Assembly (NCBI RefSeq): GCF_000526155.1
Contig: NZ_JAFN01000001.1
Coordinates: 686,501 to 750,500 of the forward strand
DNA from: Deferrisoma camini S3R1
GTDB taxonomy: Bacteria > Desulfobacterota > Deferrisomatia > Deferrisomatales > Deferrisomataceae
Direction: 5' to 3'
Length of the DNA stretch: 64,000 nucleotides
Shown here: positions 1,478 through 62,844 of the stretch, piece after piece
Position numbering within the stretch: the first letter of the stretch is position 1
Layout: each line of letters begins with the position of its first letter
Program-made: the position numbers and the translations under genes
Notes under the pieces: generated by a model
Seen by the model: only the letters and a program-made list of their open reading frames with translations
The model's database searches: none
Told to the model about the DNA's origin: nothing

Positions 1478-1746
1478 CTTCGGGCCTTCGGCCCGCTGGG
1501 CGGCCGGGCGATAATGGCTTTCAAACGTATTGCCAGGGTACGGGGTGGAGGCCTGGGATTCAGGAGCCAGAGGTCAGAAGACAGAAGTTCGGGCAGATTC
1601 TCTCCTGTCCACTGCCCTCTGGATTCTGTCTCCTGATACGGCCGCACCCGGCGCTCCACCAGACCCCCACCCCGTACTCCCCAAGGGGAAGGGGGCACGG
1701 GCCTGACAATACTTTATCCCAGTTTTCCAGCCCAAAAGGAGGAACG
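1478..1746. repeat. Intergenic palindromic element with heptamer arms
   Basis: A hairpin with arms CGGGCC and GGCCCG lies just after the MCE stop (about 1483-1496). It is the reverse-oriented form of the GCGGGCC-GAA-GGCCC word found in many other gaps. From 1537 to 1678 lies an element with inverted ends (GTACGGGGTGG and CCACCCCGTAC). Its left arm (about 1555-1588) repeats nnnnCAG with a period of 7 and its right arm (about 1602-1640) repeats CTGnnnn with the same period. The right arm ends in CTGATACGGCCGCAC, which recurs near 21588 and, degenerate, near 50951. The AAAAGGAGG Shine-Dalgarno of purH follows at about 1735-1743. Confidence 0.75.
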
Positions 1747-2346
1747 ATGGCACCGATTCGCCGAGCGATCGTGAGCGTGTCCGACAAGACCGGGGTGGTG
1801 GAGTTCGCCCGGGGTCTGGCCGACCGGGGCGTGGAGATTCTGTCCACCGGCGGCACCGCTCGGATGCTCCGGGAGGCCGGGGTTCCCGTCACCGAGGTCA
1901 GCGCCTACACGGGGTTCCCCGAGATCCTGGACGGCCGGGTCAAGACCCTGGTGCCCAAGATCCACGGGGGCATCCTGGGGCTCCGGGACGATCCCAAGCA
2001 TCGCGAGCAGATGGCCGAGCACGGCATCGAGCCCATCGACCTGGTGGCGGTGAACCTCTACCCGTTCGAGAAGACCGTGGCCGAGCCGGGGTGCACCCTG
2101 GAGGCGGCGGTGGAGCAGATCGACATCGGGGGGCCCTGCATGATCCGGGCGGCCGCCAAGAACCACCGCTACGTGACCGTGGTGGTGGACCCGGCCGACT
2201 ACCCGCGGGTCCTGGACGAGATGGACCGCAACGCCGGCGAGGTGAGCCGGGAGCTTCGGTACGAGCTGGCGGCCAAGGCGTTCAGCCGCACCTCGGAGTA
2301 CGATGCGGCGATCGCCGGGTGGCTCAAGGGGAGGGGGATCGGATGA
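1747..2346 (+). CDS. purH: Stand-alone IMP cyclohydrolase domain of PurH
   Basis: The 199-residue protein matches only the N-terminal MGS-like IMP cyclohydrolase domain of bifunctional PurH, which closes FAICAR to IMP. Visible signatures are [35 protein letters not shown] and [14 protein letters not shown]. The AICAR formyltransferase domain (another ~300 residues in the usual ~520-residue enzyme) is absent. The frame ends cleanly at a TGA that overlaps the purD ATG (ATGA), so this is a real short gene and not a frameshifted one. Start chosen at ATG 1747 with a strong AAAAGGAGG five bases upstream; an upstream extension would run through the repeat element. The formyl transfer step must be carried out by a protein encoded elsewhere. 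Confidence 0.9.
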
Positions 2347-3623
2347 AGGTCCTGGTGGTCGGAGGAGGGGGGCGGGAACACGCCCTGGTGTGGAAGATCG
2401 CCCAGAGCCCCCGGGTCACCGCCGTGTTCGCCGCCCCGGGCAACGCGGGCACGGCCGGCCTGGCCCGGAACGTGCCGATCGCGGCGGACGACGTGGACTC
2501 GCTGCTGGCCTTTGCCGAGACCGAGGGGGTGGACCTCACGGTGGTGGGGCCGGAGGCCCCGCTGGTCCTGGGCATCGTCGACCGGTTCCGGGAGCGGGGG
2601 CTGCGGATCTTCGGGCCCACGGCCGCGGCCGCCCGGCTCGAGGGGTCCAAGGCGTTCGCCAAGGCCGCGATGGACCGTTTCGGGGTGCCCACGGCCGCAT
2701 ACCGGGAGTTCACGGATCCCGACGAGGCCCGGGCCTACATCCGGGAGCAGGGGGCGCCCATCGTGGTTAAGGCCGACGGGCTGGCCGCGGGCAAGGGGGT
2801 GACCGTGGCCCGGACCGTCGAGGAGGCGCTGGCGGCCGTGGACGCCATGATGGTGGACCGCGCCTTTGGCGAGGCGGGCGGCCGGATCGTGGTGGAGGAG
2901 TGCCTGGAGGGCGAGGAGGCGAGCTTCCTGGCGTTCTGCGACGGCAGGACCGTGCTGCCCATGGCCTCCAGCCAGGATCACAAGCCGGTGTTCGACGGCG
3001 ACCAGGGGCCCAACACCGGCGGCATGGGGGCCTACAGCCCGGCGCCGGTGGTGAGCCCCGAGCTGTTCGACCGGATCGTGGACACGGTGATCCGGCCGGT
3101 GGTGGACGGGCTCGGGCGGGAGGGTACCCCCTATGTGGGCGTGCTCTACGCGGGGCTCATGATCCGGGGCGACGAGGTCAAGGTGCTGGAGTTCAACTGC
3201 CGGTTCGGCGATCCCGAGTGCCAGCCCATCGTGATGCGGATGAAGGGCGACCTGGTGCCGGTGCTGGAGGCCTGCGTCGACGGCACCCTGGACCGGGTGG
3301 ACCTGGAGTGGGATCCGAGGCCTGCGGTCTGCGTGGTGATGGCGTCGGGCGGGTACCCGGGGGCCTACGAGAAAGGCCTGGAGATCCGGGGCCTGGAGGA
3401 CGCCGCAGCCCTGGACGACGTGGTGGTGTTCCACGCGGGCACCCGGCAGGAGGCCGGCAAGGTGGTCACGGCCGGGGGGCGGGTGCTGGGGGTGACGGCC
3501 CTGGGCTCCGACATTCCGTCCGCGATCGAGCGGGCCTACCGGGCCGTGGACCGGATCTCCTGGCCTGGGGTTCACTTCCGGCGGGACATCGGCCGGAAGG
3601 CCCTGCGGCATCTGTCCTCCTGA
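2343..3623 (+). CDS. purD: Phosphoribosylamine-glycine ligase
   Basis: A 426-residue ATP-grasp enzyme that joins glycine to phosphoribosylamine in purine synthesis, in the cytoplasm. The N-terminal motif [13 protein letters not shown], the ATP-grasp stretch [11 protein letters not shown] and the metal-binding region [12 protein letters not shown] are all present, and the length is standard. The ATG at 2343 shares four bases with the purH stop (ATGA), which implies translational coupling. purH-purD in tandem is a common bacterial arrangement. Confidence 0.97.
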
Positions 3624-3779
3624 CGGTCGTTGGCGTTGGGACGTTAGGACGTTGGGACGTTAGGAGGCTAGGAGGAGGCTACGGGGAGTCGGTGGCCGCC
3701 GCGTCACCCGTCACGCGTCACCGCAGTTGACACGACGAACGACCTGCGACGAACCGATTTTAAAGGAGCAGCTTCGATC
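3624..3779. repeat. Mosaic of octamer and heptamer arrays between purD and purE
   Basis: From 3636 to 3675 five 8-bp units follow each other (TTGGGACG, TTAGGACG, TTGGGACG, TTAGGAGG, CTAGGAGG). From about 3703 three GTCACCC-type heptamers follow, and from 3731 ACGACGA/ACGACCT-type heptamers. AAAGGAG at about 3762-3768 is the ribosome-binding site of purE. Each word family recurs in other gaps of the window. Confidence 0.8.
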
Positions 3780-4286: not shown

Positions 4287-4298
4287 TGAGCACGGTCC

Positions 4299-4328
4299 TT
4301 GACGATCGCCCCGGGGCCTGTGGTATAC
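4299..4328 (+). promoter_or_regulatory. Putative sigma-70 promoter for cytochrome c3 gene
   Basis: TTGACG at 4299-4304, an 18-base spacer, and GTATAC at 4323-4328. It lies just after the purE stop and about 70 bases upstream of the cytochrome start. Pattern match only. Confidence 0.45.
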
Positions 4329-4753: not shown

Positions 4754-4781
4754 CGGCGCAGGGTGCTTGCTGACATCAGAA

Positions 4782-8022: not shown

Positions 8023-8414
8023 CGGGCAGGGCCGCGCCCCGCCCCCTGTTGTAGGAGCGACCTCCCGGTCGCGATCCGGGCCGTTGCGCCGGGGGCCTTG
8101 GCAACCGCGGGGCATGGGGCCTGCTTCCGGCCGCGCGCGAAGCCGGGCGTTGAGATTCGCCGCGCAGGCACGGGGCACCGGCGGTGGTTTCATGCCCGTT
8201 CGGTGGGGCACGAACGAACTCACGGTGCGAGCGTTGGAGGCGCTGCGCGGCGAGCCAAGGAGCCGCACGCGGCTCTCCAGCAGACCCCATGCCCCCGAGG
8301 CCTTGGAGTCGAGGCTCGGGAGCCGCCTAGCCGAATCCAGGCCCCTTGCCCCCCGGCTCCGATGTCGGGGCGAGCTTTCGACCGACGACCGAAGTCACTG
8401 GGAAGGAACCGTCG
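8023..8414. repeat. REP hairpin plus chimeric palindromic element upstream of era
   Basis: At 8057-8072 a REP-like hairpin, GCGACC-TCCC-GGTCGC, follows GTAGGA. It recurs near 21447-21462. From about 8109 to 8296 lies an element with inverted ends GGGGCATGGGG and CCCCATGCCCC. It encloses, in reverse orientation, part of the core also found at 10790-10985, 18430-18625 and 33291-33470. From 8354 the word CCGGCTCCGATGTCGGGGCG and two CGACCGA heptamers (8379-8392) lead into GAAGTCACTGGGAAGGA, which supplies the era Shine-Dalgarno. No credible coding region is seen. Confidence 0.7.
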
Positions 8415-10660: not shown

Positions 10661-11101
10661 GCCCAGGGCAACGGATCCCCCTGGTAGCCCCTTCAGGCCC
10701 CCGGGGGGCCGTCCGGGGACCAGAGACTAGAAACTGGAGACTAGAAACTAGATGTCAACCCGGCGGATAAGCAAGCGCTACCGTTCCCTGCTCGGAGGGG
10801 CAAGGGACCTGTCGGAGAGCCGGGCGCGGCCCCTTAGCTCGCCGCGCAGCGCCTCTGACGCTCGGACCACGAAACGGTTTGGGTTCCAGCGAGTTGTCAT
10901 GAAATCAGCTCTTCGGTCCCGTGCCTGCGCGGCGAATCTCAATGCCCGGCTTCGCGCCCGGCCGGAGGCAGGTCCCTTGCCCCTCCCTCCGAGGAGGCGC
11001 GTCTATTTTGTCGCCGGGTTAATAAAATCCGGGCACCTCGGCCCCTTAGCTACCCAGCCGGCCAGGGGGGGCGAAGGCCCCAGACAGAGGACCGTAGACC
11101 G
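10661..11101. repeat. Repeat-filled gap with a MITE-like unit
   Basis: At about 10727-10752 heptamers of the ACTAGAA type occur. From about 10755 to 11026 lies a unit whose ends are inverted (AACCCGGCG at the left, CGCCGGGTT at the right). Its right end (CTATTTTGTCGCCGGGTTAATA) closely resembles the terminal repeat of the IS630 element at 33245-33268. The interior is the dispersed core (GAGCCGGGCGCGGCCCCTT, later CTGCGCGGCGAATCTCAATG). At 11090-11117 four heptamers GACCGTA, GACCGAT, GACCGGA, GACCGAA run into GTT. No gene is seen. Confidence 0.75.
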
Positions 11102-12295
11102 ATGACCGGAGACCGAAGTTACTTGGAGGAGATCAGGGCCCGGGTGGCCCGGCTCCAGGCGGGCATGAAGCGCCAGGGGCTCGGGGGCGCCTTGCTCGTG
11201 CAGAACGCGAGCCGGTACTGGGCCTCGGGCACCATGCAGGCCGGGGCGGTGGTGGTCCCAGCCGGGGGAGACCCGGTGGTGTTCGTGCGCAAGGACCTCG
11301 ACCGGGCGCGGCGGGAAAGCCCGTGCCGGGTGGAAGGGCTGGCCAGCCTGCGGGACCTGCCGGCCCGGGTTCGGGAGGTGCTCGGCGGCGTGCCCGAGCC
11401 CCTGGGGTTGGAGTGGGACGTTCTGCCCGTGAACCAGGCCCGGCGGTTCCAGGGGCTGTTCGAGGGGGTGGACCTGGCCGACGTGTCGGGCGCCTTGGCC
11501 CTGGCCCGGGCCGTCAAGACGCCGTGGGAGCACCGGGCCATCGCCGAGGCGGCCCGGGTGGTGGCCGAGGCCGTGGCCCGGGTGCCGGAGCTCCTGCGGC
11601 CGGGCATCCCCGAGATCGAGCTTGCGGCAGCGGTGGAGTACGAGCTGCGGCGCAGGGGCCACGGGGGGCTGCTGCGCATGCGCGGGTTCAACCAGGAGAT
11701 CTTCTACGGCCACGTCATGGCCGGTCCCACGGCTGCCGAGCCTTCGTTCCTGGACGCGCCCACCGGGGGGGCAGGGCTGGGCCCGGCCCTGGCCCAGGGG
11801 CCCAGCACCCGCGCGATCGGACCCGGCGAGCCGGTCACCGTGGACCTGGTGGGCAACCACCAGGGGTACCTGTGCGACCAGACTCGCATCTTCTGCCTGG
11901 GCCGGCCCCCGCGGCAGGTGGCAGAGGCGTTCGAGGCCGCCTGCGCCGTGCAGGACGCCGTGATCGAGACGGCCCGGCCCGGCGCGACGGGCGACGAGCT
12001 GTACCGGGTGGCCCGCCGGGCGGCCGAGGCCACGCCGTTCGCCGACACCTTCCTGGGCCACCGCAACCCGGTGAGCTTCGTGGGCCATGGCATCGGGTTG
12101 GAGGTGGACGAGCCCCCGTTTCTCGCCCGAGGGTTCCGGGTTCCCTTGGAGGAGGGTATGGTGTTTGCGCTGGAACCCAAGTTCGTGATTCCCGGGGTGG
12201 GCGCCGTGGGGGTCGAGGACACCTTCCGGGTCACGGCGACCGGGGTGGAGCGGATCACCCTCTCTCCGAGGGAGCTCGGGCTCGTGGAGATCTGA
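11102..12295 (+). CDS. M24-family Xaa-Pro aminopeptidase-like metallopeptidase
   Basis: About 397 residues. An N-terminal creatinase-like domain (to ~130) precedes a pita-bread C-terminal domain with all five metal ligands: D in TVDLVG, D in LCDQTR, H in GHGIGLEVDE, E in ALEPKF and E in GVEDTF. It probably cleaves X-Pro dipeptides or a related amide in the cytoplasm. The start is doubtful: ATG 11102 falls inside a heptamer array, while GTG 11144 lies 13 bases after GGAGGA and gives the N-terminus typical of the family. The true protein may be 14 residues shorter. Confidence 0.85.
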   Translation: MTGDRSYLEEIRARVARLQAGMKRQGLGGALLVQNASRYWASGTMQAGAVVVPAGGDPVVFVRKDLDRARRESPCRVEGLASLRDLPARVREVLGGVPEPLGLEWDVLPVNQARRFQGLFEGVDLADVSGALALARAVKTPWEHRAIAEAARVVAEAVARVPELLRPGIPEIELAAAVEYELRRRGHGGLLRMRGFNQEIFYGHVMAGPTAAEPSFLDAPTGGAGLGPALAQGPSTRAIGPGEPVTVDLVGNHQGYLCDQTRIFCLGRPPRQVAEAFEAACAVQDAVIETARPGATGDELYRVARRAAEATPFADTFLGHRNPVSFVGHGIGLEVDEPPFLARGFRVPLEEGMVFALEPKFVIPGVGAVGVEDTFRVTATGVERITLSPRELGLVEI

Positions 12296-12443
12296 GCCGG
12301 GCCACGCCCGGCTCTCCACCAGGCCCCATACCCCCCGAAGTTTCGCCGGCGGCCCGGGAGCCGCCCGGCCGCCTAGCCGCCTGGCAGCCCAGCCGCCCAG
12401 CGGGCCGAAGGCCCCAGACCGAGATCACCGCAAAGGGGGAGAC
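12296..12443. repeat. Octamer array and GGGCC hairpin word
   Basis: Just after the M24 stop lie remnants of the CATGGGG element (CTCTCCACCAGGCCCCATACCCC). Then come 8-bp AGCCGCCC-type units at about 12360-12405, and GCGGGCC-GAA-GGCCCC at about 12407-12421. GGGGGAG lies just before the next ATG. Confidence 0.65.
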
Positions 12444-12680: not shown

Positions 12681-15950
<3,270 letters not shown>

Positions 15951-18392: not shown

Positions 18393-18655
18393 TACCAAGT
18401 TGCATTCAAAGCTATCGGCCCCCTGCACAGAGGGGCAAGGGAGCTGCCGGAGAGCCGGGCGCGGCCCCTTGGCTCGCCGCGCAGCGCCTCCGGCGTCTGG
18501 ACTGCGAAAGGGTGCGGATTCCAACGGATTGCCATGAAGCCAGCTCCCCCGCCCCGTGCCTGCGCGGCGAATCTCAATGCCTGGCTTCGCGCCCGGCCGG
18601 AGGCAGGTCCCTTGCCCCGCCCCCGGATGCGTATCCGATGGATGGCAACTTGGTA
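18393..18655. mobile_element. MITE-like element with TA ends, intact copy
   Basis: TA dinucleotides at 18393-18394 and 18654-18655 flank a 259-bp unit with inverted ends CCAAGTTGC and GCAACTTGG. It has no coding capacity. A second copy with nearly the same sequence was split by an insertion at 28880-28928 and 33291-33506; rejoined, that copy is 261 bp. TA flanks and short terminal repeats fit a non-autonomous IS630/Tc1-type element. The interior core also occurs at 10790-10985 and, inverted, near 8120-8280. Confidence 0.8.
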
Positions 18656-21357: not shown

Positions 21358-21721
21358 CGGCGGCCGATCCAATCGATAGGGTAGCTGTTATCAACCGATC
21401 GTCCGGTTGGCGCCGCGGCCACGTCCTCCGGGCCCCACGGGTAAGAGCGACCTCCTGGTCGCGATCGTGACGGGGGCGGGCCATTGCGGGCGGCGGGGCA
21501 TGGGGTTCAGGAGTCAGAATTCAGGGGACAGAGGTCAGAATGCAGAAGTGGGGGTAGAGTCTAAAAACTGAACTCTGCCCCCTGATACGGCCGCACGCGC
21601 CTCTCCACCGGACCCCATGCCCACTGAGGCCTTGATGGTGGCTCAGGAGCCGCCTAGCTGCCTAGCGGCCTAGCCGCCCAGCGGGCCGAAGGCCCGAAGC
21701 CACTGGGAAAGGAGGAGGACC
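21358..21721. repeat. REP hairpin and CAG/CTG palindromic element
   Basis: The REP-like hairpin GCGACC-TCCT-GGTCGC lies at 21447-21462. An element at 21494-21624 has inverted ends (GGGGCATGGGGTTC and GGACCCCATGCCC). Its left arm at 21506-21548 shows six or more heptamers ending in CAG or CAGAA, and its right arm at about 21566-21593 shows CTG heptamers ending in CTGATACGGCCGCAC. Octamers of the AGCCGCCC type run at 21650-21680, followed by GCGGGCC-GAA-GGCCC and GAAGCCACTGGGAAAGGAGG, which is the ribosome-binding site of the next gene. No gene is seen. Confidence 0.8.
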
Positions 21722-23739: not shown

Positions 23740-23894
23740 GAGGGGGGGACTGTGGCGCCGTTGAAGCAGCCCTACTTGCTTGGGTCCTGAGAGACGAGAG
23801 AGGCTTTTCGCTTTCTAGCCTCCCAGCCTTCTAGCTTTCCAGCGGGCCAAAGGCCCATAGCGGGCCGGAGGCCCGAAGTGACGGGAGGCTCATC
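23740..23894. repeat. Octamer array and tandem GGGCC hairpins
   Basis: At about 23815-23845 four octamers (TAGCCTCC, CAGCCTTC, TAGCTTTC, CAGCGGGC) lead into two successive hairpin words, GGGCC-AAA-GGCCC and GGGCC-GGA-GGCCC. Then GAAGTGACGGGAGG serves as ribosome-binding site of the next gene. Confidence 0.7.
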
Positions 23895-24116: not shown

Positions 24117-24488
24117 GGCTCCGGCCTTGACGCACAGGGGGTCCCCGGGTGACCCTTCGGGCTTTTTGGGCCCGAAGCCGGGCGTTGGGACGTGACATGC
24201 CGTTAGTGGTGTTGCCGCCGCGTCACCCGTCACCCGTGACCCGTCACGGAAGTACTGCCGTGAATCGTAAATCGTGAATCGTTGGGACGCTTCGCGTTTG
24301 GGGCGCGCGGCGGGCCCAAAGGCCTGCATCGGTAGGATCCTGCTCCTGCAGGCGATCCCGGGCCGGAGGCCCGGCCGGACCGGGATCGCTCCCTCGGCCC
24401 CAACGACAAACGACCCACGACCTACGACGAACGGCCCTTAAGCCTTCTAGCCCCTGTCCCCAGCGGGCGGAATCCGTGGGAGACGATC
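24117..24488. repeat. Mosaic of four heptamer families upstream of dppA
   Basis: GTCACCC heptamers occur at about 24219-24248. CGTGAAT, CGTAAAT, CGTGAAT, CGTTGGG follow at 24259-24286. The word GGGACGCTTCGCGTTTGG follows, in reverse orientation relative to 57530. TGCTCCTGCAGGCGATCCCG at about 24340 recurs at about 62502. ACGACAA, ACGACCC, ACGACCT, ACGACGA, ACGGCCC run at 24403-24437. There is no gene and no clear promoter. Confidence 0.8.
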
Positions 24489-27134: not shown

Positions 27135-27347
27135 AAAGCTCCAGCAGGCCCCTGCGGGGCCCTACAACGGGAAGGGTAACTTTGGTTGGTCCGGGGGCCA
27201 TTGCTGACGGCGGGGCAGGGGGGTCAGGAACCAGATGAATTCTGGCCCCTGAAACCCATGCCCCCCGGCTCCGACGTCGGGGCGGGCTTTCGACCGACAA
27301 CCAACGACTGACGACCAACGACCGAAGTTGCTGGGAAGGGGACGACG
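27135..27347. repeat. Palindromic element and heptamer array inside the dpp operon
   Basis: GGGGCCCTACAACGGGAAGG (near 27157) recurs near 62685. A short CAG/CTG element at 27211-27266 has two heptamers per arm and ends GGGGCAGGGG and CCCATGCCCC. CCGGCTCCGACGTCGGGGCG (27264-27283) leads to CGACCGA, CAACCAA, CGACTGA, CGACCAA, CGACCGA at 27291-27325, and then AGTTGCTGGGAAGGGG, the ribosome-binding site of the next gene. Confidence 0.8.
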
Positions 27348-32622: not shown

Positions 32623-32714
32623 CGCGGACCTCCTTGCTGGTCCGCCAACCCTACAAAGAAAAACCTGCTGAAGCAATTCCGCCTAAAGGCGAAGGATTGT
32701 GACCTGGCACTTCG

Positions 32715-33241: not shown

Positions 33242-33290
33242 TGCGCCTATTTAATCGCCGGGTTAATAACCATCGGGGCCCTTATACAAG

Positions 33291-33506
33291 GGACCTGCCG
33301 GAGAGCCGGGCGCGGCCCCTTGGCTCGCCGCGCAGCGCCTCCGGCGTCTGGACTGCGAAAGGGTGCGGATTCCAACGGGTTGCCATGAAGCCAGTTCCCC
33401 CGCCCCGTGCCTGCGCGGCGAATCTCAATGCCTGGCTTCGCGCCCGGCCGGAGGCAGGTCCCTTGCCCCGCCCCCGGATGCGTATCCGATGGATGGCAAC
33501 TTGGTA
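33291..33506. mobile_element. MITE right half (split copy)
   Basis: 214 bases matching the intact MITE from its GGGAGCTGCCGG onward, ending GCAACTTGG and TA at 33505-33506. With the 47 bases at 28882-28928 the copy totals 261 bp, against 259 in the intact copy; the two-base difference is visible in CCCTCTGCTC versus CCCTGCAC. Confidence 0.85.
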
Positions 33507-33633
33507 TGAGAAGCCCCCAGGCTCCTGTGGGGTCAGGCGACGATGGAAGTCTCTCAGGCCCCTGGGGGGCCGGGAACCGGGAAAGGGTAACTCTTCTTGA
33601 TTCGGGGCAAGCTAGAGACTAGAAACTAGAGAC
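33507..33633. repeat. Spacer word and ACTAGAA heptamer array
   Basis: A degenerate copy of the GGGCC-AAGGGTAACT spacer word (about 33565-33607) is followed by CTAGAGA, CTAGAAA, CTAGAGA heptamers at 33612-33632. The array resumes at 33866 after the element below. Confidence 0.75.
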
Positions 33634-33867
33634 TAGTGTCGTGCTTCGGAAATTTCGTGGTTTTCCCAGGCGGTGGGGCTGGGGGCCCCTCCTTCGCTGA
33701 ACGGCCTCGCAGGGGCCGCCTCGGCGCGGTCCGCTGCGGCGCGTGAGAGCACGCGCCGCAGCCGCTTCCCTGGCGCCGGGCGGCCCTAGCTGCTCGGCCG
33801 TCGCGCTTCGTCGGAGCCCCCAGCCCCACCGCACTAATCCGCATATTGTTTGCGAAACGGAACACTA
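33634..33867. mobile_element. Second MITE-like element, inserted in a heptamer array
   Basis: TA at 33634-33635 and 33866-33867, imperfect inverted ends (GTGTCGTGCTTCG and CGAAACGGAACAC), long internal arms (GGTGGGGCTGGGGGC and GCCCCCAGCCCCACC) and a central hairpin GGCGCGTGAGAGCACGCGCC. The same hairpin occurs in the 37784-38004 element. The ACTAG heptamer array flanks it on both sides, so the element landed in a pre-existing array. Confidence 0.78.
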
Positions 33868-33948
33868 GAAACTAGAGAAATCCTGGGGGGCGTCGGCCCG
33901 TGAGGCGGCCTCCCAGCCGCCCAGTGGGCCGGAGGCCCGACAAGGAGT
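33868..33948. repeat. Array remnants and GGGCC hairpin before dppD
   Basis: Remaining ACTAGAA units, AGCCGCCC-type octamers (about 33903-33922) and GGGCC-GGA-GGCCC, then AAGGAG at 33941-33946 as ribosome-binding site. No promoter was recognised for dppD. Confidence 0.65.
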
Positions 33949-36512: not shown

Positions 36513-37044
36513 CGAGGTGTCCGCGACCGGGGTTGCCTCGTCGCGGAACGGTGATTATAGGTCGCCGGTCACGACCCACGACGAACGGCCTTCAGAAACC
36601 ATTCGCCACAGATCGACACAGATGAACACAGATATGGACCCCATATCTACCCAAGAATCCGTGCAAATCTGTGAAGATCCGTGGCTAGAATCCTTACGCT
36701 GGGACGTCGGGGCGCCAAGGCCGTCACCCGTCACGGAAGTGCTGCCGTAAATCGTGAATCGTGAATCGTGGCAAGGCGGCCGGTTCTTCCCCCGTCACCC
36801 GTCACGCGTCACTGTGTCACCGCTTCTCAGCCTTCAGAAGCCATTCGCCACAGATCGACACAGATGAACACAGATATGGATCCCATCTCCGCCCAAAATC
36901 CGTGCAAATCTGTGAAGATCTGTGGCTAGAACTCTTTCAGTGGGACGGCTCGGTGGCTGCTCGACGTCCAGCCGCACAGTGGTCACGACGTACGACCCAC
37001 GACGTACGACAAACGGCCATTAGCCTCTCAAGGAGAGACGGTCC
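36513..37044. repeat. Dense repeat region with two 10-bp-period palindromic elements
   Basis: ACGACCC/ACGACGA heptamers lie at 36571-36591. Element A at 36606-36685: three 10-bp units (CACAGATCGA, CACAGATGAA, CACAGATATG), a spacer, then the complementary units ending in CTGTG-AAGATCCGTGGC. GTCACCC heptamers lie at 36723-36735, CGTAAAT/CGTGAAT at 36746-36766 and GTCACCC again at 36794-36820. Element B at 36848-36925 is a near copy of A. ACGACGT, ACGACCC, ACGACGT, ACGACAA, ACGGCCA run at 36985-37019. GGAGAG precedes the next gene. No coding region is seen. Confidence 0.85.
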
Positions 37045-37740: not shown

Positions 37741-38089
37741 GCTCTGCGACGGCCGAGGCCATGCCCCCGCGACGCACGACTGATACCAAGTCGCATTCGA
37801 AGCCAGCGATTTGGGGGCCGTTGGCCCGGAGCGCTACGGCCGAGCCGTTCAAGCCGCTCGGCGCAGGGGAGCGCCCGCGGCGCGTGCTCTCACGCGCCGC
37901 AGCGGACCGAGCCGTAGCGGCTTCGGCGAGGCCGTCTTTTCCGGCGGAGGACCAACGGCCCCCAAATCGCCCCTCTATGAGCTCATCTTGATCGCAAATC
38001 GGTACGACGACCCGCGACCAACGGGCTTCAGCCTCATGGCCTCCTAGCTTTCCAGCCTTCCAGCGGGCCGAAGGCCCAAACCGACGACC
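37741..38089. repeat. MITE-like element and arrays before the next gene
   Basis: Apart from the element at 37784-38004 the gap holds ACGACGA-type heptamers at about 38004-38022, TAGC/CAGC octamers at 38044-38062, GGGCC-GAA-GGCCC, and GACCGTG, GACCGTA, GACCGAA, GACCGAC at 38086-38113. Confidence 0.75.
37784..38004. mobile_element. Third MITE-like element with TA ends
   Basis: TA at 37784-37785 and 38003-38004 and imperfect inverted ends (CCAAGTCGCATTC and GATCGCAAATCGG). An inner pair CGATTTGGGGGCCGTTGG / CCAACGGCCCCCAAATCG is perfect. The central hairpin GGCGCGTGCTCTCACGCGCC is shared with the element at 33634. It has no coding capacity. Confidence 0.78.
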
Positions 38090-38500
38090 GTGGACCGTAG
38101 ACCGAAGACCGACGTTCCCTGGAAGCGGCTGGTGGAGCAGCTCACCGACGAGGGGTACGACAGCCCCTACCTGGACCGGCTGCGCCGGCGCCTGGACGTG
38201 TACCAGGCCCAGGACGAGCTGGAGAAGGAGATCCTCCAGGAGATGGCCGCGGCCGTGGGCCGGGCCGAGGAGAAGGTGCTGGTGGCCCTGCTGGAGCTGG
38301 AGGTGCAGGGTCGCCGGATCGACCGGTGGGAGCAGGAGGGCCGGCCCGTGCCGGCCGAGGAGATCCAGGCGTTCAACGCCAAGCGCCGCGTGGCCCGGCA
38401 ACGGCTGTGGGAGCTGGTGATCCACCGGGAGGCGCTTGGGTTCCGAAACCACCGGATCCTGGAAGAGTTCTACCCGATTCCCCCGCCCCGCCGGGCCTAG
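38090..38500 (+). CDS. Hypothetical charged helical protein
   Basis: Up to 136 residues. Helical, with a high density of E, R and L (VYQAQDELEKEILQEMAAAV, then LLELEVQGRRIDRWEQEG), suggesting a coiled coil; no signal or TM. GTG 38090 lies inside a GACCGNN heptamer array, so the true start is probably GTG 38132 (122 residues), although its ribosome-binding site is weak. The 3' end overlaps the convergent transporter gene by 128 bases. Family not recognised. Confidence 0.6.
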   Translation: MDRRPKTDVPWKRLVEQLTDEGYDSPYLDRLRRRLDVYQAQDELEKEILQEMAAAVGRAEEKVLVALLELEVQGRRIDRWEQEGRPVPAEEIQAFNAKRRVARQRLWELVIHREALGFRNHRILEEFYPIPPPRRA

Positions 38501-41860: not shown

Positions 41861-42587
41861 GGTTCGGGATCTCGTCAAGATCTTCCACGCCCGGGGCCAC
41901 GTGGTCCGGGCCGTGGACGGGGTGAGCACCCACGTCGCCCGGGGCGAGGTGGTGGTGGTGATAGGGCCCTCGGGCTCGGGCAAGTCGACCTTTCTGCGGT
42001 GCCTGAACGGCCTGGAGACCTTCGACGAAGGCCACGTGGTGATCGACGGCATGGACCTCGCGGACAAGAAGACCGACATCAACCTGGTCCGGCGCGAGGT
42101 GGGCATGGTGTTCCAGCAGTTCAACCTGTTCCCCCACAAGACCGTGCTCGACAACATCTGCCTGGCCCAGGAGGTGGTGCGGAAGCGCTCGCGGCAGGAG
42201 GCCGAGGCCAAGGCCCGGCAGCTCCTCGCCAAGGTGGGCATCGCGGAGAAGGAGTCGGAGTACCCCTCGCGTCTGTCCGGCGGGCAGCAGCAACGGGTGG
42301 CCATCGCCCGGGCCCTGGCCATGGACCCCAAGGTGATGCTGTTCGACGAGCCCACCAGCGCCCTGGACCCGGAGATGGTGGGCGAGGTGCTTGACGTCAT
42401 GAAGCAGCTGGCCCGCGAGGGCATGACCATGGTGGTGGTCACCCACGAGATGGGCTTCGCCCGCGAGGTGGCCGACCGGGTGCTGTTCATGGACGAGGGC
42501 AAGATCGTGGAAGAGGGCCCGCCGGACAAGCTGTTCTCCTCCCCCGAGCACGACCGCACGAAACTGTTCCTGAGCCAGGTGTTGTGA
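41853..42587 (+). CDS. Polar amino-acid ABC transporter ATPase (GlnQ type)
   Basis: 244 residues from GTG 41853, overlapping the permease by eight bases. Walker [20 protein letters not shown]-loop [16 protein letters not shown], signature [15 protein letters not shown], Walker [16 protein letters not shown]-loop [11 protein letters not shown]. It completes the binding protein-permease-ATPase set; a homodimeric permease is implied by the single permease gene. Confidence 0.95.
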
Positions 42588-43003
42588 AGGCTGGAAGGCT
42601 AGAAGGCTGGAAGCCACAGATTTACACAGATTGGCACGGATTTTGGGTGGAGACGAGATCCGTACCTGTGTTCATCCGTGTAGATCCGTGGCGAATGGTT
42701 TCTAAGACTGGGCAGCTAGGCGGCTGGGCGGCGAGCCGGCACGACGAACGACCCGAGGCCTTTCCCAACGATTCACGATTTACGATTCACGACAGTACTT
42801 CGATGACGCGTGACGGCTTTGCCGCCCCGACGTCCCAGCGTAAGGATTTTAGCCACAGATTTACACAGATTTACACGGATTCTTGGGTGGAGACGAGATC
42901 CGTATCTGTGTTCATCTGTGTGGATCTGTGGCCGATTGATTCTCCTCCCTGCCAGTGATCTCCTCAGGTGCCGGATTCGCTGCTTTCCGGTAGAATCCCC
43001 TGT
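42588..43003. repeat. Repeat region with two reverse-oriented 10-bp-period elements
   Basis: AGGCTGGA/AGGCTAGA octamers follow the stop. Elements D (42614-42692) and E (42853-42933) share the spacer TTGGGTGGAGACGAGATCCG, the reverse complement of the spacer of elements A and B. ACGACGA/ACGACCC lies at 42741-42754 and CGATTCA, CGATTTA, CGATTCA at 42769-42789. TAGAAT at 42991-42996 could be a -10 for the next gene, which would then be leaderless. No gene is seen. Confidence 0.82.
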
Positions 43004-49236: not shown

Positions 49237-49444
49237 GGCAACCTCTCGTGTCAGGTCGGGTAGGCTAGAGACTAGAAACTAGAAGAGACTAGAGCCTAGA
49301 GAAATTCCGGATGCCTCGGCCCGTTAGGCGGGCGGCCGCGCCCCAGAATCCGTGCCAATCTGTGTCCATCTGTGGCCCCCAGCTTCCCAGCGGGCCGCAG
49401 GCCCAGATTCTGCCACAGGGCGGCCGGCTTGGCGACCGTCGAGC
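49237..49444. repeat. ACTAG array and half of a 10-bp-period element
   Basis: CTAGAGA, CTAGAAA, CTAGAAG, AGACTAGAGCC occur at about 49264-49300. The right arm only of a CACAGAT-type element follows at 49345-49376 (AATCCGTGCC, AATCTGTGTC, CATCTGTGGC), and CAGC octamers with GGGCC-GCA-GGCCC at about 49381-49406. No gene is seen. Confidence 0.72.
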
Positions 49445-49503: not shown

Positions 49504-50736
49504 CTAATTGTGTCGGGCCGCCTCGCGGATCATGCGCTTGGCCTCCTGTTTGATCTCCACCAGGTCCTTCTTCATCTCGGCCAGGCCGTACCAGGTGACG
49601 TAGTCGGGGTTCATGTGGAACGCCCCCTGGAACGCCCGCATCCGGTGCTCCAGGAACATCACGTACAGGGTCTGCTCGATGGGGGTCCTGGCCTCGTAGA
49701 AGGTCAGCAGGTCCGGGTAGGCTGGTTTGCCGGGCTCGGGCTCGATGATGCCCCGCTTGTAGAGGTCGGCCACGATCTCGATGGCCTCGGCCATCAGCTT
49801 GTCGGCCTCCTTGATCATGGCGTCCGCGTTCTTGAGGTTGGTCTCCGCGTAGGACCGGCTGTGGCACTTGGTGCACACGTTGAGCATCCGGTCCCGCTCG
49901 GCCTGCCACTCCTCCTTGGTCAGCCGGGCCACCTTGCCGGCCTTCACCACGTCGAGGCGGGCCGTGGGCTTGCCGTCGGGGTCGAGCACGTGGAGGCCCT
50001 TGAGGATGGTGAGCCGGTAGTTCATCCACTCCTTGTCGTCCTCGGGCAGCCGCAGAGCCAGGAAGCCCCAGGCGGTCATCACCTTGTGGTTGCCGTTCTC
50101 CATGTGGCAGGTCTGGCACTTGGGAGCCCGGCCGGTGTCACCCTCGGTCAGGTAGATCACGCCGTGCTTCGAGCTGGACCACATCTCCCACTGGGGGTGG
50201 TCGAAGCCCATGTGGCAGGTGCGGCACGCCTCGGGCCGCTGGGCCTCGGCCTTGGAGAACTTGTGGCGGGTGTGGCACGAGTCGCACGGCGACCCGTACC
50301 GGGACTCGGCGCGGACCGACTCGTCCCGCACGCCCACCTTGTGGCAGCCGCCGCAGCCCTTGAGGCCCTGGATGTAGGCGTGGGGCTGGAACCCGGTCTT
50401 GGGCATGGCCGCCATGGCGATCCAGCCGGCGGCGTGCTTTCCGGCCATGTACTCGTCGTGCTTCTCCTGGTGGCACTGGGCGCAGGTCTTCTCGGTGGGC
50501 AGCTTCACCTTGGCTACGTCGTCGGCGCTCGTGTGCTCCGACCCGTGGCAGTTGGAGCAGTCGATCCCGGCCTTGCCCATCTCGCCCGACAGGAAGTCCT
50601 TGACGATGTTGGGCGTCACCTTCCGGTGACACTCCATACAGGCGCTCTCACCGGCCCAGGACGAGCCCGCTGCGAGCACCAGCGCGGCCGCGGCCGCGAC
50701 CGCCACGGTGAGGTGAAAGCCGATTCGTTTCCCCAT
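49504..50736 (-). CDS. Octaheme c-type cytochrome, hydroxylamine oxidoreductase type
   Basis: 410 residues from the ATG at 50734-50736, with GAGGAGGAG upstream on the minus strand; a much longer frame upstream is spurious. Signal peptide, cleavage near SWA-GE. Eight CXXCH motifs: CMECH, CSNCH, CAQCH, CGGCH, CDSCH, CRTCH, CQTCH, CTKCH. The C-terminal helical region (EQTLYVMFLEHRMRAFQGAF, then NPDYVTWYGLAEMK) matches the HAO family, whose three-helix tail forms the trimer. Reductive HAO relatives turn nitrite or hydroxylamine into ammonia. Whether the cross-linking tyrosine of oxidative HAO is present cannot be decided by eye. Confidence 0.88.
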   Translation of the reverse strand: MGKRIGFHLTVAVAAAAALVLAAGSSWAGESACMECHRKVTPNIVKDFLSGEMGKAGIDCSNCHGSEHTSADDVAKVKLPTEKTCAQCHQEKHDEYMAGKHAAGWIAMAAMPKTGFQPHAYIQGLKGCGGCHKVGVRDESVRAESRYGSPCDSCHTRHKFSKAEAQRPEACRTCHMGFDHPQWEMWSSSKHGVIYLTEGDTGRAPKCQTCHMENGNHKVMTAWGFLALRLPEDDKEWMNYRLTILKGLHVLDPDGKPTARLDVVKAGKVARLTKEEWQAERDRMLNVCTKCHSRSYAETNLKNADAMIKEADKLMAEAIEIVADLYKRGIIEPEPGKPAYPDLLTFYEARTPIEQTLYVMFLEHRMRAFQGAFHMNPDYVTWYGLAEMKKDLVEIKQEAKRMIREAARHN

Positions 50737-51944: not shown

Positions 51945-52568
51945 CGAAGTGCCAGGTCACAATCCTTCGCCTTTAGGCGGAATTGCTTCAGCAGGTTTTT
52001 CTTTGTAGGGTTGGCGGACCAGCAAGGAGGTCCGCGATGGCAGAGTATCGAAGAGGGGCACACACAGTCCATGACATCAAGTATCACTTTGTATGGGTGA
52101 CGAAATATCGATACAAGATTCTGAGAGGGGAGATAGCGGAGCGCGCGCGGGATATTATCCGGCAAATATGCATGGCGCGAGAGATCACGATACTGAAGGG
52201 CTATGTAAGTAAGGATCATGTTCATCTGTTTGTGTCAGCTCCTCCGAGCTTGTCGCCGGCTCGGATCATGCAGTATGTGAAGGGACGATCGTCAAAGATG
52301 TTGCAGCAAGAGTTTCCGTCTCTTCGGAAACGGTATTGGGGGCAGCACATTTGGGCTCGGGGCTACTTTTGTGCTTCGTCGGGCACGGTGACGGACGAGG
52401 TGATCAAAGCGTATATCGAGCAGCAGACTGTGCCGCCGGAGGACGACTTCAAGGTGTCCGACGAAGCACGGGCTTGAGCCGGCTTTAGCCGCACGACAGC
52501 GGCTTCAGCCGCAACCAGCGACTTTCAGTCGCAACAGAACCCACCGGCTTTAGCCGGTGGTCGTTCAG
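51945..52568 (+). mobile_element. IS200/IS605-type element, copy 2, intact
   Basis: 624 bp, starting CGAAGTGCCAGG and ending GTCGTTCAG. It has a left subterminal hairpin (CCTTCGCCTTTAGGCGG) and a right end with four consecutive small hairpins, the last CCACCGGCTTTAGCCGGTGG. There is no target duplication; the 5' flank is TTGAATTT. It encodes only tnpA. Confidence 0.92.
52037..52477 (+). CDS. tnpA: IS200/IS605 TnpA (Y1 HUH transposase), copy 2
   Basis: 146 residues from ATG 52037 with AGGAGG upstream; a longer frame from 51983 runs through the element's end. HUH motif HVHLFVSAP and tyrosine helix KAYIEQQT. The protein is identical to copy 1, and the coding GC content is visibly lower than in its neighbours, consistent with recent arrival. 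It is an intact element, presumably the active one. Confidence 0.94.
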   Translation: MAEYRRGAHTVHDIKYHFVWVTKYRYKILRGEIAERARDIIRQICMAREITILKGYVSKDHVHLFVSAPPSLSPARIMQYVKGRSSKMLQQEFPSLRKRYWGQHIWARGYFCASSGTVTDEVIKAYIEQQTVPPEDDFKVSDEARA

Positions 52569-55417: not shown

Positions 55418-56547
55418 GGCCCCCGTTCGCCCGGGTGGTGGTGGACCGGGAGGTGGCCGACCTCCGGTTCACGCGGGAGTTCCTGGACCGGATCGGGTCG
55501 GCCGTGCCGGTCGAGATCGCGGCGCCGGGCTCGCCGGCGCCCCAGGGCCGAACCACGGTGCACCTGACCCGGGAGCCCGGCCGGTTCCTGAAGCCGTGCC
55601 CCTGCAGCCCCGGGGTGGTGCGGTGCGGGTACTGGGTGCTCTCCCCGGCGTTCCAGTGCCCGTTCGCCTGCGCCTACTGTTTTCTGCGGTTCTACGCCCC
55701 GGACGAGCCCCTGACCCTGTACGCGAACCTGGCCGACGCCGAGGCCGAGCTCCGGGACGCGCTGTCGCGGTGGGAGGGGCCTGTGCGGCTGGGCACGGGG
55801 GAGTTCGCCGACAGCCTGGCCCTCGACCCCTGGACCCGCCACGCTCGGTGGCTCCGGGACCTGGTGGCGCCCCACCCGCGGGTGCTCCTGGAGCTCAAGA
55901 CCAAGAGCGACCGGATCGAGGGGGTGCTCGAGGACGGGCCCGCGCCGAACGTGGTGCTGGCCTGGTCGGTGAACCCGCCGGCTCGGATCCGCACGGACGA
56001 GCCGGGAACCGCGCCCCTCGGCCGGCGGCTGGCCGCGGCCGCCGACGCGGTGCGGGCCGGCTTTCGGGTCGCGTTCCATTTCGACCCGGTGATCCTCGAA
56101 GGGGAGTGGCGCGGGGAGTACGCCGGGGTGGTGGAGGCGATCTTCGACGCGGTGCCGCCGGAGCGGGTCGCCTGGATCAGCCTGGGCACCCTGCGGTTCC
56201 CCCGCCGGTTCTTGGAGCGTTGGGGGCCGGCGCTCCGGGGCCGAGCCGCGTTTTTCGGGGAGCAGGTGCCGGGGGAGGACGGGAAGCTCCGGTATTTCTG
56301 GCCCTTGCGCCGGGACGCCTACCGGTTCCTGGCCGGGGAGATCCGCCGCCGGGCCGGGCCGGACCTGCGGCTCTACCTCTGCATGGAGACCCCCGCCATG
56401 TGGCAGGCGGCGTTCGGCCAGGAGCCCGGGCTCGAAGGCGACGTGGAGCGCTGGCTCGCCGCCCCCCTCTGCACCGGCGGGGCCTCCCGCCTCCACAATC
56501 TATCGGCCACAGATTCACACGGATTCACACAGATGAACCAGAAGTAG
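55414..56547 (+). CDS. Spore photoproduct lyase-like radical SAM protein
   Basis: 377 residues from GTG 55414. The radical SAM cluster motif C-x3-C-x2-C is in FQCPFACAYCFLRF, with upstream CPCSPGVVRCGYWVL cysteines typical of the SPL family. LGTGEFADSLALD and LLELKTKSD follow. In spore formers SPL repairs spore photoproduct; in non-sporulating relatives the substrate is unknown. The last ~13 residues (ATDSHGFTQMNQ region) are encoded by a CACAGATTCA repeat that starts at 56507, so the original C-terminus has been replaced or extended. Confidence 0.88.
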   Translation: MRPPFARVVVDREVADLRFTREFLDRIGSAVPVEIAAPGSPAPQGRTTVHLTREPGRFLKPCPCSPGVVRCGYWVLSPAFQCPFACAYCFLRFYAPDEPLTLYANLADAEAELRDALSRWEGPVRLGTGEFADSLALDPWTRHARWLRDLVAPHPRVLLELKTKSDRIEGVLEDGPAPNVVLAWSVNPPARIRTDEPGTAPLGRRLAAAADAVRAGFRVAFHFDPVILEGEWRGEYAGVVEAIFDAVPPERVAWISLGTLRFPRRFLERWGPALRGRAAFFGEQVPGEDGKLRYFWPLRRDAYRFLAGEIRRRAGPDLRLYLCMETPAMWQAAFGQEPGLEGDVERWLAAPLCTGGASRLHNLSATDSHGFTQMNQK

Positions 56548-59233: not shown

Positions 59234-59405
59234 GCGGCGGGACGCTCTTTGCCCCCTGGGCGCCAGGGCAGTGGCTCCCTCTCCCCCCCCGGGGGGGAGA
59301 GGGCCGGAGTGAGGGGGAGCAAGTCCGACCCACGACCAACGCAACGACCTGTGGCCTTTCCAACGATTCACGATTGACGATTCACGATTTACGGAAGTTT
59401 TCGAC
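59234..59405. repeat. Gap with inverted repeat and CGATTCA array
   Basis: An inverted repeat CCCTCTCCCCCCC / GGGGGGGAGAGGG lies at about 59278-59303. ACGACCA-type heptamers lie at about 59333-59350 and CGATTCA, CGATTGA, CGATTCA, CGATTTA at 59364-59391. It is convergent between the dehydrogenase and bioD, and no clear terminator is seen. Confidence 0.7.
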
Positions 59406-61288: not shown

Positions 61289-62286
61289 AGGCCCCTCCCG
61301 CTCCCCTCGGCCACCGGCCGGAAGCCCAGGTCCCGCACCATCTTCAGGTCCTGGTCGGGGTGGCGGCCCGCCGTGGTGAGGTAGTGGCCCACCATCATGC
61401 CGTTGGCCCCGGCGTAGAAGATCCACGAGGCCAGGTCCCCCAGGTTGCGGTCGCGGCCCGCGCACACCTTGATCGTGGCCCTGGGCAGCAGGAACCGGTA
61501 CACGGCCACGATCTTGAGGCACTCCAGGGGCGGCAGCGGGGGCATGCTCTCCAGGCGGGTGCCCTGGACCGGCACCAGGAAGTTCAGGGGCACGCTGTCC
61601 ACCTCAAGCTCCCGCAGGGTCAGGGCCATCTCCACCCTCTGGGCCCGGCTCTCGCCGATGCCGAAGATCCCGCCCGAGCAGGTCATGAACCCCAGGCGCT
61701 TGGCCGTGCGCACGGTCTCCACGTCGTCGTCGTAGTCGTGGGTGGTGCAGATCTCGGGGAAAAAGCTCCGGGCGGTCTCCAGGTTGTGGTGGTAGCCCCG
61801 GAGGCCAGCCTCCCACAGCCGCCGGAGGGCCTCCTCGGACAGGATGCCCAGGCTCGCGCAGGGGCTCACCTCCCCTTCGGCCGCGATGCGCCGCACGGCC
61901 TCGCACACCCGGTCGAGCTCGGGCCCCTCGCCCACGGCCGTGCCGCTGGTCACGATGCCGAACCGGTTCGCACAGATGCCGGCCCCCTCCCGGGCCGCGG
62001 CCACGATCTCGTCGGGGTTCTTCAGGTCGTACACCGGCGCCTCGGTCCGGTGATGGGCCGACTGGGCGCAGAAGGCGCAGTCCTCGGGGCACCGGCCGCT
62101 CTTGGCGTTCACGATGCCGCACAGCTCCACGTCGTACCCCTTGAACCTCCGGGCGACCCGGTTGGCCGAGGGGAACAGGTCGTACACCTCGGGCCCCTCG
62201 AGCTCCATGAGCTCCACGGCCTCCTCGGCCGTGACCTGCCCCCCGTCGTAGATCCGCTGCTCCAGCGCCTCGATCCGCTCTCGCAT
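61285..62286 (-). CDS. bioB: Biotin synthase
   Basis: 333 residues from the ATG at 62284-62286, preceded on the minus strand by GGGAGG. The radical SAM motif CPEDCAFCAQS, later YHHNLETARSFF and the [2Fe-2S]-ligand regions TCSGGIFGIGES and KVCAGRDRNLGD are present. It inserts sulfur into dethiobiotin. It is the first gene of the operon, 50 bases downstream of a promoter overlapped by a BirA operator. Confidence 0.97.
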   Translation of the reverse strand: MRERIEALEQRIYDGGQVTAEEAVELMELEGPEVYDLFPSANRVARRFKGYDVELCGIVNAKSGRCPEDCAFCAQSAHHRTEAPVYDLKNPDEIVAAAREGAGICANRFGIVTSGTAVGEGPELDRVCEAVRRIAAEGEVSPCASLGILSEEALRRLWEAGLRGYHHNLETARSFFPEICTTHDYDDDVETVRTAKRLGFMTCSGGIFGIGESRAQRVEMALTLRELEVDSVPLNFLVPVQGTRLESMPPLPPLECLKIVAVYRFLLPRATIKVCAGRDRNLGDLASWIFYAGANGMMVGHYLTTAGRHPDQDLKMVRDLGFRPVAEGSGRGL

Positions 62287-62337
62287 CCGTGGCCTCCCAG
62301 AAAGAACCGCCGCCCCGCGGGCGGCGCGAACGCCCGT

Positions 62338-62390
62338 AGGTAGCACGGGGAAGGGCATGCCGTCAACCAAAAGAGCGGCGTTGGTTGACG
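62338..62390 (-). promoter_or_regulatory. BirA operator overlapping the bioBFD promoter
   Basis: The perfect inverted repeat GTCAACC-N14-GGTTGAC (62362-62389) matches the biotin-repressor BirA operator pattern. On the minus strand the inner half of the repeat ends in TTGACG (plus 62361-62366), a good -35. CTACCT lies 17 bases further on (62338-62343) as the -10. Holo-BirA bound here would block polymerase, so biotin should repress the operon. Confidence 0.9.
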
Positions 62391-62844
62391 GTGGTGCTTT
62401 CGGCTCCGCCGGAGTGGAACATGGCGTAACAGGGTGGGAAGAAAAGTTCTTAGGGTGGGGCAGTTGGACGTTGGGACGGCAGGACGCTAGGAAGTAGAAG
62501 CGTGCTCCTGCAGGCGATCCCGGGCAGGAGGCCCGGTCAGCGGACGCGAAGCGTCCGAACGATTCACGATTCACGATTCACGATTTACGATTTACGATTT
62601 ACGAATCCCCCGGCCCCCCTCTTGCATCCCCGACGGCCCTCGGTGTTCCGCCCGTCTTCCCTGGGAGCCCCCATCGGCCCCGGCGGGGCCCTACAACGGA
62701 GAAGGGTCACTTGCGTTGGTCCGGGGCGAGCTAGAGACTAGAAACTAGAGACTAGAGACTAGAACGTATGGGAATCCGGGAGGTTTTCAAACCTCCCAGC
62801 GTCCCAGCGTCCTAGCGTCCCAACGGAAGTTGCATGGAGCTCGA
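62391..62844. repeat. Longest heptamer tract and mixed arrays
   Basis: Octamers occur at 62463-62492 (GACGTTGG, GACGGCAG, GACGCTAG types). TGCTCCTGCAGGCGATCCCG (about 62502) matches 24340. Six CGATTYA heptamers in a row lie at 62560-62601. GGGGCCCTACAACGGAGAAGG (about 62685) matches 27157. CTAGAGA, CTAGAAA, CTAGAGA, CTAGAGA, CTAGAAC run at 62731-62765, and CCCAGCGT, CCCAGCGT, CCTAGCGT, CCCAACGG at 62795-62826. GGAAGTTGCATGGAG then precedes the next start. No gene is seen. Confidence 0.85.

Follow-up and report, generated by a model that had tools for sequence, protein, structure and literature searches.

Degenerate heptamer and octamer arrays in the intergenic DNA of Deferrisoma camini S3R1 tend to point inward from genes and to change by whole units

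Arrays and cores in the window

This report concerns the intergenic DNA of Deferrisoma camini S3R1, as seen in a stretch of 64,000 nucleotides, called the window below (bases 686501-750500 of a closed 4.24-Mb genome; G+C 69.8%). The gaps between its genes carry tandem runs of short degenerate units, here called arrays, and two families (A and B) of palindromic cores, dispersed and about 225-285 bp long, that resemble miniature inverted-repeat transposable elements (MITEs). Each array family keeps a word while its free positions vary, the words mostly point inward from the nearer gene, and whole units are gained and lost between this genome and a sister species. Our best reading, with a probability of roughly one half, is that these are array-bearing mobile repeats that evolve by whole-unit slippage and whose words are under constraint.

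Five word families were profiled in a 1.264-Mb sample of the genome: G7, GGTC plus three free positions; O8, G[CT]T[AG]G[AG][AC] plus one free position (GCTRGRAN); T7, CT[AG]GA[AG]A (CTAGARA); A7, CGT[AG]AAT (CGTRAAT); and D10, CACAGAT plus three free positions, with the decamer word CACAGATNNN. The features of the window are as follows, G001 and G002 being other assemblies of the same genus.

3634-3675, plus: O8 octamer array (G[CT]TRGRAN), pointing away from the upstream gene
3702-3721, plus: CGTCACC heptamer array
8089-8333, minus: MITE-like core, family A
10713-10752, plus: T7 array (CTAGARA), 4 bases from a MITE-like core; G001 copy 14 bp (two units) shorter
10757-11023, plus: MITE-like core, family A, inverted ends AACCCGGCG...CGCCGGGTT
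11083-11118, minus: G7 array (minus-strand GGTCNNN) that overlaps the called start at 11102; a true start further downstream is possible
12360-12406, minus: O8 array leading into hairpin GGGCCGAAGGCCC
18393-18655, plus: MITE-like core, family A, ends TACCAAGTTGC...GCAACTTGGTA
21507-21547, plus: TCAGNNN heptamer array, one arm of a hairpin
21648-21699, minus: O8 array and hairpin GGGCCGAAGGCCC; called start 22 bp on
23805-23860, minus: O8 array; G001 copy 16 bp (two units) shorter
24221-24247, plus: CGTCACC heptamer array
24259-24282, plus: A7 array (CGTRAAT); G002 copy longer by one 7-bp unit
24402-24433, minus: ACGACNN heptamer array; called start 55 bp on
27293-27323, minus: G7 array; called start 57 bp on
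33287-33511, plus: MITE-like core, family A
33612-33636, plus: T7 array that leads into a family B core at its CTAG end
33628-33910, plus: MITE-like core, family B, ends CTAGTGTC...GAACACTAG inside the stretch
36603-36683, no strand: D10 hairpin with arms CACAGATNNN and ATCTGTG
36746-36812, plus: A7 array, then CGTCACC array
36845-36924, no strand: second D10 hairpin, a near copy of that at 36603-36683
36985-37015, minus: ACGACNN array; called start 29 bp on
37780-38004, minus: MITE-like core, family B, plus-strand ends TACCAAGTCGC...GCAAATCGGTA
38031-38112, minus: O8 array, hairpin GGGCCGAAGGCCC and G7 array, in the recurrent order given below
42586-42613, plus: O8 array, beginning at the called stop codon
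42768-42792, minus: A7 array
42854-42930, no strand: D10 hairpin, two arms
49262-49301, plus: T7 array
59363-59393, minus: A7 array
62559-62604, minus: A7 array, top score of the window (36.9)
62731-62763, plus: T7 array
62794-62825, minus: O8 array; called start 43 bp on

Samples and scoring

Genes were called by a simple codon-usage script, and individual gene ends may be wrong. Arrays are maximal-scoring lag segments (match +1, mismatch -1.1) with a score of at least 11 at lags 4-30; a lower threshold, at least 9.5 at lag 7, 8 or 10, served for comparison with the positions named by a first-pass annotation of the same DNA. The control outside the window consisted of 20 grid-placed stretches of 20 kb (400 kb, with 54,955 intergenic bases). 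Word profiles, gap-occupancy counts and flank recurrence come from the 1.264-Mb sample (about 30% of the genome), and array totals and orientation from a 1.584-Mb sample that was partly picked for synteny with G001 contigs. G003 is a genome of the same family, from another genus.

Period, density and words of the arrays

Short-period arrays with strict spacing had been described by the first-pass annotation, and 25 of the 34 positions that it named overlap an array at the lower threshold, the other nine (3731, 8379, 27222, 33903, 36571, 36723, 42741, 50880 and 62463) being shorter or weaker runs visible by eye. The 8,926 intergenic bases of the window hold 15 arrays at lag 7, eight at lag 8 and nine at lag 10, together with nine and five at the doubled lags 14 and 16, and zero to three at each remaining lag; ten dinucleotide shuffles of this DNA yielded 0.0-0.11 arrays per 10 kb per lag, and coding DNA is periodic chiefly at lags that are multiples of 3. 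Outside the window, the grid stretches gave 38, 39, 25 and 19 arrays at lags 7, 8, 14 and 16, respectively, and at most nine at any other lag. Hence, at lags 7 and 8, intergenic autocorrelation, which had been proposed as a check, far exceeds the shuffled and coding controls both in the window and in the 400 kb elsewhere. The decamers that had been listed beside the other units are present in the window as lag-10 arrays, but only five such arrays occur in the grid stretches, a scarcity from which it follows that they are concentrated in the window; they are a separate, hairpin-forming family.

In the 1.584-Mb sample, 334 arrays are intergenic (14.9 per 10 kb) and 69 lie in called genes (0.51 per 10 kb), which by linear extrapolation gives about 900 for the whole genome. 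The earlier impression that almost every larger gap is filled was too strong: by gap length, the share holding an array is 51/107 at 400-1500 bp, 60/161 at 200-399 bp, 45/150 at 100-199 bp and 18/221 at 20-99 bp. The related statement that no copy lies in the middle of a gene needs correction for a decamer array (56508-56534) at the 3' end of a called open reading frame (ORF). Nor are the arrays confined to one assembly, since G001 and G002 also carry them; four tandem GGTCNNN units are found 281 times in this genome, 210 in G001, 101 in G002 and three in G003.

Most arrays comprise some 3-6 units as judged by reading, and the number of free positions per unit is one to three, rather than the half of all bases first supposed; 56 of the 334 intergenic arrays match none of the five word models. 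Whole or in part, a recurrent order is seen: stop codon, hairpin GGCCCCTGCGGGGCC, T7, core, O8, hairpin GGGCCGAAGGCCC, G7, GAAGTTACT, start codon. Among 174 gaps with labelled O8, G7, T7 or A7 arrays (D10 left out), 116 contain a single array, and the remaining 58 hold an inward-facing pair in 41, same family in 10. In the gaps inspected by reading, D10 and TCAG arrays form hairpin arms, and no Rfam family matched above its gathering score in the window. Strict alternation of CTAGAGA and CTAGAAA in T7 was considered and set aside, the signal being weak (z 1.5 for adjacent units and -2.1 for next-but-one units); the two letters found at position 6, A and G, show roughly the mixing seen in shuffles (66 of 100 vs 60).

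Cores, flanks and mobility

Cores occur, whole or in part, at 77 places in 864 kb, the longer ones measuring 193-283 bp, and they are MITE-like in being short dispersed copies with terminal inverted repeats, several inverted ends having been recognised by reading. A DDE_3 transposase ORF (window 32795-33241, plus strand; 148 aa, E 1.8e-30, profile positions 33-146 of 146) adjoins a 713-bp gap holding two of them and is possibly a remnant of a core's source.

The arrays travel, at least in part, with their surroundings. Among 284 testable 60-bp array flanks, 156 (55%) recur elsewhere in the sample, a further 293 having been left out for overlap with a gene (181) or another array (112); recurrence was 49/85 for array-free 60-mers of the same gaps, 73/343 for array-free gaps and 9/104 for genes. 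Eight of 19 gaps could be matched in G003, of which six measure 39, 36, 7, 73, 49 and 91 bp there vs 269, 156, 148, 338, 246 and 532 bp here, where they contain arrays or cores; the two without arrays or cores are 101 and 110 bp there vs 110 and 131 bp here. A metagenome-assembled genome, JALUTY (bacterium isolate 128-326), was compared by BLAST at three loci picked for CTAGARA: its best long matches are about 65-70% identical, and it carries G7, T7 and O8 arrays as well as cores 85-87% identical, one locus being ordered G7-core-T7. With a core much more similar than the remaining sequence, the package has probably passed from one lineage to another, and these arrays and cores make an origin confined to the genus unlikely.

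A tie to repetitive extragenic palindromes and their associated tyrosine transposases was also considered, and the counts of the Y1 transposase family PF01797 show no clear link to repeat abundance: 12 matches here (at least four of them one IS200-like gene), three in G001, two in G002 and two in G003, beside 281, 210, 101 and 3 for GGTCNNN in fours. Two IS200-type transposase genes lie in the window at 32182-32676 (minus) and 51983-52477 (plus), with equal scores (PF01797, E 1.5e-44); this element looks recent, because the genome has four equal-score matches and G001 only a partial one. The window also encodes a multi-haem cytochrome c (49504-50736, minus; PF13447, E 2.2e-26), in keeping with a presumed metal-reducing lifestyle.

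Change between sister species

Comparison with a sister strain for unit gain and loss, which had been suggested at the outset, was carried out on the sister species G001: 277 of 407 gaps between called genes have an orthologous gap in its stretches, and 276 were aligned, insertions and deletions (indels) of 5-80 bp with clean borders being counted in array columns and in other intergenic columns. Whole units are indeed gained and lost. Arrays contain 36 indels in 3,562 columns (10.1 per kb), 18-fold more than the 22 in 39,519 other columns (0.56 per kb), and 27 of the 36 are exact multiples of the period (12/18 at lag 7, 15/18 at lag 8), the nine others measuring 6, 8, 9 or 15 bp at lag 7 and 7, 9 or 20 bp at lag 8; outside arrays, multiples of 7 and of 8 each account for 3 of 22. 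The units involved in the 27 whole-unit indels resemble the better neighbouring unit with a mean identity of 0.80, vs 0.63 for random array units, 24 being above the control and five identical to the neighbour.

Substitutions follow the words. Conserved positions changed at 68 of 1,903 (3.6%), free positions at 81 of 1,144 (7.1%) and other intergenic positions at 5.5% (p = 2.6e-5); base composition predicts 104 conserved and 64 free changes. When ascertainment was simulated under uniform mutation, with array detection unchanged, the ratio averaged 0.94, and 0 of 100 runs reached the observed 0.505. An earlier run on 148 gaps had given 2.9%, 5.1% and 4.8% for conserved, free and other intergenic positions. 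Although free positions are slightly faster than other intergenic DNA (p = 0.025), labelled array positions overall are not (149/3,047, 4.9%, vs 5.5%), and hypervariability of array bases was accordingly discarded. By place, conserved and free positions changed at 4.0% and 6.6% in leaders, and at 2.9% and 7.9% elsewhere. With mostly whole-unit indels, gained units that are neighbour-like and words slower than free positions, the slippage plus selection once offered among several mechanisms is supported. No support emerged for a protein filament or templated extension, neither of which was probed directly. The companion idea, that phase is conserved more than sequence, holds only in part: the free positions are fixed for each family, the words are kept and overall divergence is not raised.

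Part of this pattern could arise without any selection on the words. If the arrays were neutral passengers, ordinary degenerate minisatellites in mobile repeats, their apparent constraint would reflect shared ancestry and homogenisation, a possible but rather unlikely account. It is consistent with the recurrence of 55% of testable flanks and with the predominance of whole-unit indels, and adjacent units resemble each other more than they do after within-array shuffling at O8 positions 6, 7 and 8 and at position 5 of G7 (z -2.4 to -4.8). Next-but-one units are also more alike than in shuffled order at 4 of 10 positions tested (z -2.1 to -5.6, the latter at G7 position 7), as unit duplication predicts, which suggests some two-unit duplications. 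Yet homogenisation should affect all positions, and neighbours differ in 53% of cases at O8 position 4 and in 4% at position 5; moreover, orthologous word positions remain slower than other intergenic DNA after the controls for base composition and ascertainment.

Orientation within gaps

When the word is written as GGTCNNN, GCTRGRAN, CTAGARA or CGTRAAT (D10 arrays and those fitting no word model being left out), 207 of 253 labelled arrays point inward from the nearer gene, in all four gene arrangements: 103/131 where the left gene is nearest and 104/122 where the right one is. The bias appears on start-facing (137/148) and stop-facing sides (70/105). It is also obtained without words, from the G-richer strand, which gives 225 inward vs 55 here and 108 vs 15 in G001, against 484 vs 446 for array-free intergenic 30-mers. 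Put otherwise, the G-rich strand starts near an ORF and heads away from it in 225 of 280 arrays (median 45 vs 188 bp), compared with 484 of 930 array-free controls. Orienting by purines instead of G over C weakens the bias (183 vs 104). The families differ in the ends that they occupy, G7 (68:18) and O8 (80:37) favouring starts over stops, and T7 tilting to stop ends (24:12, p = 0.065). A universal G-strand rule was rejected, given that CTAGARA arrays of other phyla are split 55 vs 51; other words in those genomes show a weak bias (42 vs 25, p = 0.05), and 20 stretches from the phylum gave 7 vs 3, too few arrays to judge.

The preference for starts could point to sites in leader RNA, in which NNNGACC or NTYCYAGC before starts would be bound by a cold-shock protein or S1 and tune translation, much as has been proposed for TAACTGA in Beggiatoaceae. 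Start-facing arrays being mostly inward, the C-rich strand is sense, and 104 O8 or G7 arrays end 3-77 nt before a called start within the set limit of 80 nt. Even so, this explanation is decidedly unlikely: stop-facing sides are biased too, including those of convergent gaps, and constraint is no stronger in leaders. Avoidance of G-rich, Shine-Dalgarno-like leaders before start codons may account for part of the inward rule on start sides. That leader arrays are kept single-stranded found no support in the folding of 40 leaders per family out of the 104, the unpaired fraction being 0.48 vs 0.48 in shuffles for G7 and 0.36 vs 0.39 for O8 (slightly more paired).

Occurrence in other genomes

Among 59 genomes searched, three (this one, G001 and G002) contain four tandem CTAGARA units; elsewhere such runs occur across many phyla, in at least 119 stretches of other genomes, as well as in four viral contigs. 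Of the arrays at these 123 loci, 60 have both A and G at position 6, and in them equal letters cluster, neighbouring units being unlike in 80 of 349 cases. With CTAGARA masked, lags 7, 8, 14 and 16 still dominate the 119 loci (3.2, 0.74, 2.4 and 0.63 per 20 kb, vs 0.09-0.22 for other lags that are not multiples of 3). A dedicated phase-keeping machine, extending DNA ends by a templated or footprint-limited mechanism, would write such arrays inward from both edges of a gap, which matches the entry of the G-rich strand from both sides. It is nonetheless highly improbable, as orthologous arrays can be aligned base by base once unit indels are set aside, gained units resemble their neighbour and the 119 loci were preselected for a heptamer array.

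Within the phylum, 20 stretches of 18 other genomes hold 16 arrays at lag 7, six of them in one genome, and 16 of these picks were chosen for a listed match elsewhere in the same genome. Three tandem CACAGATNNN units occur in 17 of 395 phylum genomes, with 12 instances here, 10 in G002 and none in G001; in G181 and G204 they number 79 and 68, far above the count here. Two further genomes, G141 and G317, have degenerate heptamers of their own, with words such as RTAACNN and NNTCAGC and one array of about 80 bp. In G274, the reversed control CTGGNNN in fours matches 41 and 64 times on the two strands and is probably another heptamer family. Since the reversed control is also strong in some genomes, the finding of GGTCNNN in fours in 62 of 395 genomes does not measure the family cleanly.

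Known systems

The over-representation of heptamers in bacterial genomes was found long ago, and cyanobacterial STRR heptamers are intergenic tandem heptamers with fixed words. Degenerate, word-keeping heptamer and octamer arrays have already been published for Geobacter metallireducens and Xanthomonas, and the kind itself is therefore known; the statements that follow rest on the portions of these reports that were consulted. In G. metallireducens, tandem degenerate octamer and heptamer sites are paired, with 16-49 sequences per class, and IHF/HU was guessed as the reader (Aklujkar et al. 2009, PMC2700814). Those sites, present in tens of copies, consist of three to five degenerate units of 7-9 nt in tandem, a build shared by the arrays here, and class 3, MTYCTGA, when reverse-complemented resembles the TCAG heptamers at 21507. 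The Geobacter pairs lie on opposite strands at variable distance; in the present genome, 116 of 174 gaps with labelled arrays hold one array, and 41 of the other 58 hold an inward pair. Unlike the present arrays, the Geobacter sites are described there without sister-species unit turnover or word constraint (PMC2700814). The Geobacter words GTTGCTYN, TCTCCGTS and MTYCTGA gave no tandem triplets and 0, 0 and 4 pairs in the 1.584-Mb sample, the reversed-word control giving 0.

For Xanthomonas, (GGGANTN)n is intergenic and conserved at positions 1-4 and 6, and Nostoc has GGGGA(Y)T; the Xanthomonas heptamers lie on average 28 nt from the 5' neighbouring ORF and 160 nt from the downstream ORF, and Xcc has 70 cases of convergent site pairs (Rehm et al. 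2015, PMC4692102). Judged from these distances, the G-rich strand appears to head away from the near gene, as here; by contrast, a single word is involved there and a G-quadruplex is proposed (PMC4692102), and the consensus words CTAGARA, CGTRAAT and CACAGATNNN contain no GG. Tandem GGGANTN gave no triplets and three pairs in 1.584 Mb, with two in the reversed-word control. The same paper cites a suggestion that polymerase contact length favours heptamer slippage, and states that there was no detailed literature on over-represented bacterial heptamers as of 2015 (PMC4692102). TAACTGA repeats of marine Beggiatoaceae are intergenic, mostly just before start codons, and in related Cyanothece strains indels are mostly in 7-nt increments (MacGregor 2015, PMC4679880); that account, as far as consulted, concerns one fixed word and describes no MITE-like package. 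Tandem TAACTGA pairs are absent from 1.584 Mb here and 0.796 Mb of G001. Strong enrichment of some repeats of 6-9 bp in prokaryotic phyla is reported by a 2025 survey (PMC12699852). In the open-licence literature, no account was found that joins several families, an inward rule, unit turnover and word constraint.

Mechanism and meaning

Under the reading favoured here, the gaps of the genus would have been filled by mobile repeats of a modular, non-autonomous kind, made up of palindromic MITE-like cores and small hairpins, that bear arrays on their flanks, and copying of the modules would spread the arrays, a step for which the recurring flanks speak in part. Whole 7- or 8-bp units, the gain and loss of which was observed, would come and go by slippage or unequal exchange between neighbours, and the word would be kept while the spacer drifts, as the substitution statistics indicate. 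Most simply, a putative reader would recognise the word at fixed intervals, each array serving it as a row of sites, and may act on gap DNA or during movement of the modules.

Several points weigh against this. CTAGARA arrays in other phyla lack an orientation bias (55 vs 51), and 128 of 284 testable flanks have no second copy in a sample of about 30% of the genome. The relation to JALUTY is drawn from BLAST of three CTAGARA-picked loci, not from orthologues. The modules were linked to no transposase, an autonomous partner not having been searched for systematically, and no reader protein or RNA was identified by the present analysis. Constraint on the words is modest, homogenisation inside arrays could be a part-cause, and the presence of constraint both in leaders and elsewhere points to no single function; array bases in leaders are not more unpaired than shuffled ones.

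A bolder and unlikely extension is that a horizontally mobile package lays several phase-locked word arrays inward from gene edges, turning every gap into two docking tracks for sequence-specific readers that step by 7 or 8 nt. If this were true, unrelated words of the same step and the like strand rule of Xanthomonas would be independent cases of one general bacterial device. The genus offers a dense natural laboratory, with several word families, hundreds of arrays and sister species about 95% identical between genes, and it makes testable whether a protein reads the words, what sets the step at 7 or 8, and for what reason the G-rich strand heads away from genes.

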